A DNA stretch of 64,000 nucleotides. It comes from an uncultured Campylobacterales bacterium (GTDB lineage: Bacteria > Campylobacterota > Campylobacteria > Campylobacterales > Sulfurimonadaceae). Below, in pieces: positions 10,110 to 13,683 of the stretch. The DNA is taken from NCBI GenBank assembly GCA_903892995.1, contig CAITKP010000036.1:124001-188000 (forward strand). The letters are read 5' to 3'. The notes below the pieces were generated by a model, which had not been told where the DNA came from, ran no database searches, and saw only the letters and a list, made by a program, of their open reading frames with translations. Each line of letters begins with the position of its first letter. Position 1 is the first letter of the stretch. A program made the position numbers and the translations under genes.

Positions 10110-10154
10110 GATATTTTTGTGATAAACTTTCACAAAACAGAAGGAGCATATATT

Positions 10155-11360
10155 ATGAAAAGAAGAGATTTCTTTAAAACTGCTGCTGTAGTCGGGGCTG
10201 CAACTCTCGGCAGCAACGCCTTTGCAAGCGATATTGTAATGAGACAACCTAGAAATATAGGTCCAGCTCCTACAATAAACTTTCCAGAAAAAAGACCAAT
10301 GGTGGCATACTCTGATCGTCCTCCACTACTAGAAACTCCGCGTGAAGTTTTTACACACGCGATTACTCCAAATGATCAATTTTTCGTTCGTTGGCATATG
10401 CCAGAGATCCCAACTTTAACAGACACTGAGAGTTTTACTATCAGCGTTAATGGTCTAGTTAAAAACGAATTTAAAGTAACTCTTAAACAACTTAAAACTG
10501 AGTTTGAGCAAGTTGAAGTAACAGCAGTTCTTCAATGTGGTGGAAACGGACGTTCTGCATTTTCACCGACAACTGGTGGTGTTCAATGGGGCAATGGCGC
10601 AATGGGTTGTGCAAGATGGAAAGGCGTGAGACTTCGTGACCTTCTTCACCGTGCAGGACTCAAAGAGGGAGCTGAGTGGATCGGTTTCAATGGTTTAGAA
10701 CATGCAGCATATTATGAAACGCCTAACTTCGTTCGTGAACTTCAAATACATGAGCTTGATGATCATGTTATCGTAGCGTATGAGATGAATGGCGAAGATC
10801 TTCCATACTTAAATGGATATCCTGTTCGTCTTGTTATTCCAGGTTATTACTCTGATAGCTGGGTTAAAATGCTAAGTAACATCACAGTAACTGATAAATA
10901 CAAAAGCCTCTTCTTTATGGATCATGCCTACCGTGTGCCTGATAATGCAACAGAATCTGAAACACCAGAAAAAGAGTTCAAAAAAACAAAACCTATCACG
11001 CTTATGAATCTCAAATCAGTTATTGGGTTCCCTCAAAACGATGCAGTGATCACTTATGGTTCTCAGCTTGTCGTTCGCGGTGTTGCATTTGACAGCGGGA
11101 TTGGTATTGCTAAAGTTCTCGTCTCTCTTGATGATGGAAAAACATGGGAAGAAGCACTTCTAGATGATGGAAAAGCTGGACGTTATGCGTATAGAGCATT
11201 TAGATACAGCTTTAAACCAAAAACATATGGTGATATGAGAATCATGGCAAGAGCTGTTGATAAATTTGGTAAAGAGCAACCTCTTACTCAAGATGTACTA
11301 TGGAATCATGGCGGTTATAAATTTAATGGTGTTGAAGTTATCAACGTCAAAGTGGTTTAA
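10155..11360 (+). CDS. sorA: sulfite:cytochrome c oxidoreductase, molybdopterin subunit (SorA-like)
   Basis: Oxidises sulfite to sulfate in the periplasm and passes electrons to a c-type cytochrome. The chosen start (AAGGAG nine bases upstream) gives a Tat signal, MKRRDFFKTAAVVGAATLG. The molybdenum-ligand cysteine is C128 in AVLQCGGNGRS, followed by the Moco-binding core with NGYPVRLVIPGYY, and a C-terminal immunoglobulin-like dimerisation domain (about 290-400, with VRGVAFDSGIGIAKV). The 401-residue size fits the sulfite oxidase family, and the downstream monohaem cytochrome supports SorAB. Another member of this family, such as a YedY-like reductase, is less likely given that partner. Confidence 0.88.
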   Translation: MKRRDFFKTAAVVGAATLGSNAFASDIVMRQPRNIGPAPTINFPEKRPMVAYSDRPPLLETPREVFTHAITPNDQFFVRWHMPEIPTLTDTESFTISVNGLVKNEFKVTLKQLKTEFEQVEVTAVLQCGGNGRSAFSPTTGGVQWGNGAMGCARWKGVRLRDLLHRAGLKEGAEWIGFNGLEHAAYYETPNFVRELQIHELDDHVIVAYEMNGEDLPYLNGYPVRLVIPGYYSDSWVKMLSNITVTDKYKSLFFMDHAYRVPDNATESETPEKEFKKTKPITLMNLKSVIGFPQNDAVITYGSQLVVRGVAFDSGIGIAKVLVSLDDGKTWEEALLDDGKAGRYAYRAFRYSFKPKTYGDMRIMARAVDKFGKEQPLTQDVLWNHGGYKFNGVEVINVKVV

Positions 11361-11372
11361 AAGGAGCAAAAC

Positions 11373-11675
11373 ATGAAAAAGATACTATTAATGATGCTTA
11401 TTGCTTTTGCACCTTTGTTTGCACAAGTGAGTGAAAGTATTGAAGTTCCATATATCGCGTATGAGATAAAAATGGGTAAAGGGTTTGAAGAGGTCAATGC
11501 AAACTGTCTTATGTGTCACTCTTTTGGATACATGACAAACCAAGGTCCTCAATCTCGCCAGTTTTGGAAAGAGAAAGTAGATAAAATGAGAAATAGCTTT
11601 AAGGCACCTATCTCAGAGAAAGATTCTAAGACTATTGTGGATTATTTTTCAAAACATTATGGAAACGGTAAATAA
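11373..11675 (+). CDS. sorB: monohaem cytochrome c subunit (SorB-like)
   Basis: A 100-residue periplasmic cytochrome with signal peptide KKILLMMLIAFAPLFA and one CLMCH haem-binding motif (about residue 46). Mature length near 84 residues suits a single-domain class I cytochrome. It starts 12 bases after sorA with its own AAGGAG and would accept electrons from the molybdenum subunit and hand them to the respiratory chain. The role is inferred from the pairing with SorA. Confidence 0.85.
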   Translation: MKKILLMMLIAFAPLFAQVSESIEVPYIAYEIKMGKGFEEVNANCLMCHSFGYMTNQGPQSRQFWKEKVDKMRNSFKAPISEKDSKTIVDYFSKHYGNGK

Positions 11676-11683
11676 ATTTCCAC

Positions 11684-11703
11684 CTCTTTTAGACCCAAAA
11701 GAG
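11684..11703 (+). terminator. hairpin after sorB
   Basis: CTCTTTT and AAAAGAG form a seven-base stem around the six-base loop AGACCC, starting nine bases after the sorB stop. The stem is AT-rich and no immediate U-run follows, but a T7 run occurs at 11722-11728 within the next hairpin. Confidence 0.45.
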
Positions 11704-11708
11704 TGCTT

Positions 11709-11740
11709 GTACATGTAAGGATTTTTTTCTTACATGTAAG
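11709..11740. repeat. paired TACATGTA palindromes flanking a T-rich loop
   Basis: GTACATGTAAG and CTTACATGTAAG lie 11 bases apart with a T7 run between them. Because each copy is self-complementary, the two can also pair with one another as one larger stem. Placed after sorB and before the next promoter, the pair may end sorAB transcription. Confidence 0.6.
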
Positions 11741-11786
11741 TGCCCTTTTACGATAAGCTTTAACTTCTTCATAAACTTTTGTGTTC

Positions 11787-11792
11787 TATAAT
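11787..11792 (+). promoter_or_regulatory. -10 box of the receiver-PilZ operon
   Basis: A perfect TATAAT in the context TTCTATAATCAAAC. Transcription would begin near 11799, just before AGAAGGA and the TTG codon at 11817. This rules against the upstream in-frame GTG at 11781 as start. Confidence 0.65.
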
Positions 11793-11816
11793 CAAACTAC
11801 AAAGAAGGAATACAAG

Positions 11817-12923
11817 TTGATTGATATCCAAAATTTTAAACAAAAAAGTATCGGTCTTTCCATCTTACATGTAGATGCAAATCACAAATTTTTAGAAAAC
11901 TCTCGCAATCTTCTTCAAAAACTTTTTGACAATGTAGCCCTAAGCGATAATACAACGAGTGCTCTGCAAATCCTCAAAGAAAACCAGTTTGATATTTTAA
12001 TCACTGATATAGAGTTTGCGGATGAAGATGGAATCGAATTTATCCAAGAACTAAAAAATTTTTCTCCAAACATAAAGATTATTGTTATTACTGCGCATGA
12101 TACAAAAGAGAATCTCTTAAAACTTATCTCTCTTGGTCTTTTTAAGCTCCTAGAAAAACCTATCCATGCACCGAACCTAGTGCAAACACTCTATGATGCA
12201 ATCATTTCGATAGAGGAGCAAAAAAATGCTCAGTTATCACACGAACAACTCGAAGAGAAAAACAGCTTACTTACATTTCTTGAAACTTTATGCCAAAATC
12301 AAGAAATCATTCAGCTTCATAACTACTATAAAGGTTTGAGTATTACAAACAATGCTCTCATCAAAAATGTAGGAACACATCACATCACTTTTTCGACAAG
12401 CGATATACAGCTTCAAGCGATTCAGTATGAAACCAAGACCATCGTAACATCTGAACTTTTAAATAGTGCTCTTGTATGCAAAAATATTTTAAAACTTGAA
12501 TTTAACAGTGGAACTGTCAATTTTAAAGATTTCATTCTGCACAAAACTTCGCCTATTTTAAGAAAAGCGGTTCGTGTAAATGTCGAGAGTCTGCATAGTG
12601 TTGCGCTGAGTATCAATGAACATCTTTTTCTTGGTAATATTTCCATAGCCGATATCTCAGTTGAAGCCGTAAAATTGGAACTAGATGCCCTTCCAGCTGG
12701 AGTTCATTTAGCCAATAATTCTATAAAGATTGACATAAATATCCAAAATGGTCTAGAGAATGTTGTTTTAAACGCAGATGGCAAATATTTAAGAGAAGAT
12801 GAAAATGATTCAAGCTATAGTGTTGTGTTTATGCTCTCTTACGATCTTGCACAAAAGAGTGCACTTGTAAAATATATAGCAAAAAGACAGATGGAACTTA
12901 TACGAGAATTTAAAAGGTTATAG
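11817..12923 (+). CDS. response regulator receiver protein with PilZ-like C-terminal domain
   Basis: About 368 residues from a TTG start preceded by AAGGA. Residues 14-125 form a receiver domain: D20 in the acidic pocket, phospho-acceptor D64 in LITDIEF, T92 in VITAHD and K114 in LLEKPI. A linker helix (about 125-150) leads to an uncharacterised middle region, then a C-terminal segment (about 250-368) with RVNVESLHSVAL and GNISIADISVEAVKLEL, shaped like a PilZ domain, though the RxxxR and DxSxxG signatures are weak. It may couple phosphorylation to c-di-GMP or motility output. The next gene, one base away, encodes a diiron-type protein. Confidence 0.8.
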   Translation: MIDIQNFKQKSIGLSILHVDANHKFLENSRNLLQKLFDNVALSDNTTSALQILKENQFDILITDIEFADEDGIEFIQELKNFSPNIKIIVITAHDTKENLLKLISLGLFKLLEKPIHAPNLVQTLYDAIISIEEQKNAQLSHEQLEEKNSLLTFLETLCQNQEIIQLHNYYKGLSITNNALIKNVGTHHITFSTSDIQLQAIQYETKTIVTSELLNSALVCKNILKLEFNSGTVNFKDFILHKTSPILRKAVRVNVESLHSVALSINEHLFLGNISIADISVEAVKLELDALPAGVHLANNSIKIDINIQNGLENVVLNADGKYLREDENDSSYSVVFMLSYDLAQKSALVKYIAKRQMELIREFKRL

Positions 12924-12924
12924 T

Positions 12925-13683
12925 ATGCAAAATCAAGAAAAAATACTCTTTGACAACGGTACACATAAATTTATTATGTTTAGTTTTGATGATGAGACAC
13001 ACGAAGATTCCTATCTTTCTGTCAACCAATACCTTATTGTCCAAAATAATATGGGTGTTTTAATCGATCCAGGAAGTGAAGCAATTTTTGATGAACTCAG
13101 CGAAGCTGTTACAAAACATGTTGCTCTTGAAAATATAAAATATATCTTTTTATCGCATCAAGATCCTGATGTATCGGGCTCTATTACGCAATGGAGTGTT
13201 ACCACTCCTGCAAAATTTATCATCTCTTCGCTTTGGGTGAGATTTATGAGTCATTATGGTTTTTTAGATATGGGTCGTATTATGTCTCTGCCAGATCATG
13301 GAGCAAAAATCCATTTTGGAGAGAACTATATTCAGTTTGTTCCAGCGCATTTTCTTCACTCCCCAGGAAATTTCTCACTCTATGATTCTTTATCGAAGAT
13401 TCTTTTTAGCGGAGATATCGGAGCTGCGATAGTGCCAGCACATGATGAATATAAACATGTCGATAATTTTGAAAAGCATAAAAAAAATCTTGAGGGGTTT
13501 CACAAACGCTATATGGGTTCCAATAAACTTTGCCGTGCGTGGGTCTCTCATGTAGAAAAACTAGATATAAATATCATCGCCCCACAACATGGACTTCTTT
13601 TTGAGGGAGGCGATGCGCAACTCTTTTTAGAGTGGCTCAAAGAGCTCGAATGCGGAAGTGATCTTTTAAGTGAGCTTTACTAA
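12925..13683 (+). CDS. diiron metallo-beta-lactamase-fold protein (ODP/flavodiiron-like, no flavodoxin domain)
   Basis: A 252-residue metallo-beta-lactamase-fold protein. Candidate metal ligands follow the flavodiiron pattern: H78, D80 and D82 in LSHQDPDVSGS, H145 in HFLHSPGN, D164 in FSGDIGA and H222 in APQHGLLF. Position 80 is acidic, as in flavodiiron oxidases, not histidine as in hydrolases, and no FMN domain follows. Stand-alone proteins of this type are known as oxygen-binding diiron proteins that signal oxygen to chemotaxis proteins. Here it is translated just after a receiver-PilZ protein, so a sensing role is plausible; oxygen or nitric oxide reduction is the alternative. Confidence 0.8.
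   Translation: MQNQEKILFDNGTHKFIMFSFDDETHEDSYLSVNQYLIVQNNMGVLIDPGSEAIFDELSEAVTKHVALENIKYIFLSHQDPDVSGSITQWSVTTPAKFIISSLWVRFMSHYGFLDMGRIMSLPDHGAKIHFGENYIQFVPAHFLHSPGNFSLYDSLSKILFSGDIGAAIVPAHDEYKHVDNFEKHKKNLEGFHKRYMGSNKLCRAWVSHVEKLDINIIAPQHGLLFEGGDAQLFLEWLKELECGSDLLSELY

Follow-up and report, generated by a model that had tools for sequence, protein, structure and literature searches.

A conserved pairing of a receiver-PilZ gene with an oxygen-binding diiron protein gene in Campylobacterota, and its possible role in signalling

In the window (the whole 64-kb stretch of DNA that was analysed), two open frames on the plus strand, gene 1 (11817-12923) and gene 2 (12925-13683), are parted only by base 12924, which lies between the stop of the first and the start of the second, as the original prediction had stated. 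Gene 1 encodes a receiver-PilZ protein and gene 2, judged from its family matches, an oxygen-binding diiron protein (ODP). The pair is conserved across many Campylobacterota, and we consider it fairly probable that it constitutes a soluble sensor-effector module, in which the state of the ODP is passed to the receiver-PilZ protein as output.

The diiron protein and its receiver-PilZ partner

Gene 2 (12925..13683, plus strand; 252 aa) encodes a protein that, by sequence, is a member of the ODP family. It matches PF19583 with an E-value of 9.7e-75 (251 bits, against a cut-off of 27.2) and the solved ODPs 6qrq (5.9e-78) and 6qnm (4.7e-70) over almost its full length, whereas its matches to flavodiiron proteins are far weaker (4.7e-10 at best). 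Flavodiiron proteins have the fold and most metal ligands in common with gene 2. However, the gene 2 protein has no flavodoxin (FMN) domain and carries Asp where the HxExD motif has Glu. The original description of a stand-alone diiron protein without an FMN domain is thus upheld by the family matches and by the length of the protein, which consists of the diiron domain alone. The ligands proposed at that stage (H78, D80, D82, H145, D164 and H222) are all found in the protein and do not vary among relatives, and the ODP set adds Q221. A Gln ligand was noted in the Thermotoga ODP in a published comparison (PMC7785958). The full set of seven ligands is invariant across the paired ODPs and, with incomplete frames set aside, the same set is kept in all ODP domains examined, whether stand-alone, fused to GGDEF or kinase domains, or from other phyla. 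From its family, the gene 2 protein is expected to bind oxygen. That gene 2 encodes a di-zinc hydrolase is unlikely, given the family identity and the ligands.

Gene 1 (11817..12923, plus strand; 368 aa) has the order receiver-PilZN-PilZ. The receiver domain occupies residues 16-125 (11862..12191, plus strand; PF00072, E 9.3e-22). Its functional residues had been predicted to be intact. This is true of the phospho-acceptor D64 and of T92 and K114. In the Mg-binding acid pair, however, the second position is Ala21, where 43 of the 47 aligned sequences have Asp. The acid pocket reads D20-A21-N22 in the window protein, D-S-S in the sister species and E-D-N in 41/47. The relatives also have about 130 extra residues between the receiver and the PilZ half, which are missing in the window protein and in the sister. 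Weak PAS matches in 11 members, together with a mixed alpha-beta model, indicate a PAS-like domain in this region. By this alignment, the gene 1 protein is shorter than its relatives for lack of their PAS-like middle domain, and both the loss of the acid and the missing domain are common to the window protein and its sister. In a longer ODP partner (L084, 2988-4946, plus strand; L204), a GGDEF-like, apparently degenerate domain is located between the receiver and the PilZ half.

The C-terminal half of gene 1 had been said to resemble PilZ, and a YcgR-type PilZ fold is now confirmed at the level of profile match and predicted structure. Searched alone, this half matches PF07238 with an E-value of 1.1e-4 (22.9 bits, just over the cut-off of 22.5), and PilZ matches are found in 26/47 homologs. 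A plain Pfam search with the whole protein misses the domain. The AlphaFold model of gene 1 has a mean pLDDT of 93.1, and a Foldseek search with it returns, besides receivers, MrkH, MotI/DgrA, PP4397 and VCA0042 (E 2e-8 to 1e-6), all of which we take to be two-domain PilZ proteins. The TM-scores of these matches are low because the domain orientation differs. The fold search alone detected this relationship, as a profile of the C-terminal half gave no sequence match to solved structures. The first beta domain of this half, residues 164-245 (12306..12551, plus strand; pLDDT 93), is covered by the Foldseek matches to two-domain PilZ proteins and appears YcgR-N-like by position and fold. The PilZ domain with a C-terminal helix follows at residues 246-368 (12552..12920, plus strand). 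It carries R249xxxR253, D279 and S281. The two-domain beta-rich architecture and the RxxxR and DxS motifs are common to it and the YcgR-type proteins. Gene 1 differs from them in its added N-terminal receiver (and its relatives also in the PAS-like domain), and in the Gly of the [DN]xSxxG motif, which is Ala284 in the window protein and likewise Ala in 30/47 homologs. Binding of c-di-GMP by the PilZ half is therefore uncertain. A six-frame search of the genome with PF07238 gave zero matches and missed even gene 1, and is thus uninformative about the number of PilZ proteins in this genome. No relative of gene 1 was found in the plasmid collection.

Neighbourhoods and fusions of ODP

Conservation of the two families as neighbours was among the checks proposed with the original prediction, and the outcome is in its favour. 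Neither of the refuting outcomes named there came about, as the neighbours are conserved and the model of the C-terminal half is similar to PilZ proteins. Among the 15 best ODP matches in 299 genomes of the order, a receiver-PilZ gene directly precedes the ODP gene in 13, and one is present within a few genes in the other 2. In named Campylobacterota genomes, the PilZ gene lies immediately 5' of the ODP gene in 51/53 loci with room upstream, a kinase gene follows ODP in 27/55 loci, and a receiver-HD-GYP gene is close by in 21/55; these loci include related species and are not independent events. The titles of their records include Sulfurimonas, Sulfuricurvum and Arcobacter, and ODP identity ranges down to 47%. 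A chance or one-off neighbourhood is rejected by this conservation across the order and the named genomes. Receiver-PAS-PilZ relatives without an adjoining ODP also exist; therefore, the PilZ family does not require ODP.

In the phylogenetic tree, the window protein groups with its sister with full support, and the two share a long branch (0.87); the clade of 25 paired proteins that contains them is well supported. The ODP-linked PilZ proteins as a whole do not form a single clade, and a single origin of the pairing is therefore not established by the tree.

In chemotaxis, ODP has an established role as an oxygen sensor. Among 25 ODP loci from other groups (Aquificales, Thermotogota, Spirochaetota and others), 21 have a short chemoreceptor gene right behind the ODP gene, as is known from Treponema, and the examined stretches of these 25 loci contain no relatives of gene 1. 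Thus, in the loci examined, PilZ and chemoreceptor neighbourhoods separate by phylum. In Treponema denticola, ODP (TDE2498) is coupled to the chemoreceptor homolog TDE2496 (PMC7666581). The gene 2 protein belongs to the same family as TDE2498 and the Thermotoga maritima ODP over its full length, has the same ligands and also adjoins a signalling partner gene, but the partner is a receiver-PilZ protein instead of a chemoreceptor. No soluble chemoreceptor gene neighbours the window ODP gene, and the receiver-PilZ gene stands in its place; a chemoreceptor neighbour is context, not a condition of membership in the family. This suggests, short of proof, that these bacteria have wired the ODP sensor to a different signalling circuit. 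In two gammaproteobacteria (L213, L214), tandem ODP genes are followed by an HD-GYP gene.

Other loci of the order carry ODP as an N-terminal domain: it is fused to GGDEF in 28 distinct loci and to a histidine kinase in at least 15, and most of the kinase fusions have a receiver gene alongside. All diiron ligands are kept in both kinds of fusion. Other stand-alone ODPs of the order adjoin GGDEF, GGDEF-EAL, kinase or HD-GYP genes. The domain calls for the fusions and for these order-wide neighbours were made with small purpose-built profiles, not with Pfam. These fusions, seen among the order-wide ODP hits (L018-L032, L114-L146), are possibly the broader finding. Because of the fusions and the PilZ, kinase and HD-GYP neighbours, ODP is here very probably a module that provides input to c-di-GMP and two-component signalling.

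Non-heme diiron input to c-di-GMP signalling is already known from hemerythrin-domain enzymes of another fold, Vibrio cholerae Bhr-DGC and Ferrovum Bhr-HD-GYP, in which it conveys oxygen or redox state (PMC9388753). The pair proposed here would likewise use a non-heme diiron centre. However, the fold and ligands of the Bhr domains are unrelated to those of ODP, and the Bhr sensor is fused to its enzyme, whereas the window ODP is a separate protein encoded beside a PilZ protein (ODP-GGDEF fusions occur elsewhere in the order). Among the open-licence papers searched, none describing ODP together with PilZ or GGDEF was found, which is not proof of novelty. If ODP also feeds c-di-GMP circuits, by way of partner proteins and of its GGDEF and kinase fusions, a single diiron sensor fold would serve several kinds of output, and a testable route leading from oxygen to swimming or attachment would exist in many Campylobacterota. 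As a small two-protein system, the shortened pair of this genome is amenable to study in the test tube.

Possible signalling routes

In the mechanism that we favour, ODP would bind oxygen, or change its redox or metal state, at the diiron site, and would pass this state on to the product of the gene immediately before its own, the receiver-PilZ protein. This protein would deliver the output and is most likely an effector of motility or attachment that responds to c-di-GMP. For many other Campylobacterota, ODP probably tunes a small phosphorelay that includes the histidine kinase and the receiver-HD-GYP protein and whose targets would be a c-di-GMP effector as well as a c-di-GMP phosphodiesterase. 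The window lineage lacks a local kinase, the PAS-like domain and the Mg-binding acid of the receiver, so its ODP would probably signal to the receiver-PilZ protein through contact and not by phosphorylation. The altered sequences thus hint that the ODP of this lineage acts on its partner without phosphorylation. The contact itself, c-di-GMP binding and the physiological output are inferred. In its most specific form, which is tentative and to our minds somewhat doubtful, the pair would be a kinase-free oxygen switch: oxygen-loaded ODP would bind directly to a receiver no longer open to normal phosphorylation, which would act only as a docking platform, and would so gate the PilZ effector. Outputs in motility or attachment are possible, since the genome encodes flagellin and has 23 GGDEF matches that exceed the cut-off. 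The original prediction had suggested that the pair could link oxygen to c-di-GMP or motility; its first half is borne out insofar as fusions and neighbours tie ODP to c-di-GMP enzymes, but the link to motility is unsupported.

Alternatively, ODP may signal only to a histidine kinase, which would phosphorylate the receiver-PilZ protein with no contact between the latter and ODP; in the window species, this kinase would be encoded elsewhere. The ODP-kinase fusions with adjoining receiver genes, the kinases directly behind ODP in many loci, and the report that ODP alters CheA ordering in Treponema (PMC7666581) are all consistent with such a route. However, the constant neighbour of ODP is the PilZ gene and the kinase gene is less so, the window locus has no kinase gene, and the receiver has lost its Mg-binding acid in both the window protein and the sister. 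Taken together, these observations make a kinase-only route rather unlikely, and the passing of the ODP state to the PilZ partner remains the preferred reading.

An enzymatic role is less probable still. A small oxygen- or NO-consuming enzyme that uses a separate electron donor, with a receiver-PilZ gene that is merely co-regulated, would fit the fold and the majority of ligands, which the gene 2 protein has in common with flavodiiron oxygen and NO reductases. However, the gene 2 protein lacks the flavodoxin domain, a separate flavodiiron-like gene (G000:C105, 422 aa) is present in the genome, and the GGDEF and kinase fusions, as well as the chemoreceptor neighbours in other phyla, favour signalling.

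That the window copy is a decaying, functionless relic of a full module seems very improbable: the long branch, the lost acid and PAS-like domain, and the broken pair in the near species G302 (L101, L067), where the ODP is a remnant and the receiver-PilZ gene is gone with the flanking genes still in place, would all fit decay, but the frames are full in two species, the PilZ arginines and the ODP ligands are kept, and both genes are under purifying selection against the sister species (dN/dS 0.056 for ODP and 0.215 for receiver-PilZ, rough values since dS is high, 1.3-1.5).

Start codon and upstream region of the pair

There are two candidate starts of gene 1: GTG at 11781, called mechanically and giving 380 aa, and TTG at 11817. 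The latter is most likely the better start, because AAGGA, a likely ribosome-binding site (11805..11809, plus strand), lies 7 bases ahead of it, the N-termini of the homologs fall at the same point, and the residue numbering of the original prediction also counts from this TTG. The start at 11787 given there does not hold, as this position is not a codon and falls on the hexamer TATAAT (11787..11792, plus strand). The hexamer, read directly from the sequence, is a possible -10 box with no clear -35; the promoter scan, which requires a -35 match, does not list it. Promoter-like sites in the consensus scan are no commoner than in shuffles.

Between the upstream operon and the pair, there is a strong RNA hairpin (11697..11749, plus strand; MFE -21.4 kcal/mol, z -4.65). 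It is made from two copies of ACATGTAAG. The hairpin was not flagged by the terminator scan and is a possible terminator or regulatory element. The sequence of a hairpin and then TATAAT makes the proposed single promoter for both genes plausible, but the consensus scan adds nothing to it beyond the level of shuffled sequence. On the other side of the hairpin, just upstream (10119-11675), are the genes of a molybdopterin oxidoreductase with a Tat-like signal (PF00174 and PF03404) and of a small protein with a weak cytochrome match, which together form a sulfite-dehydrogenase-like pair.
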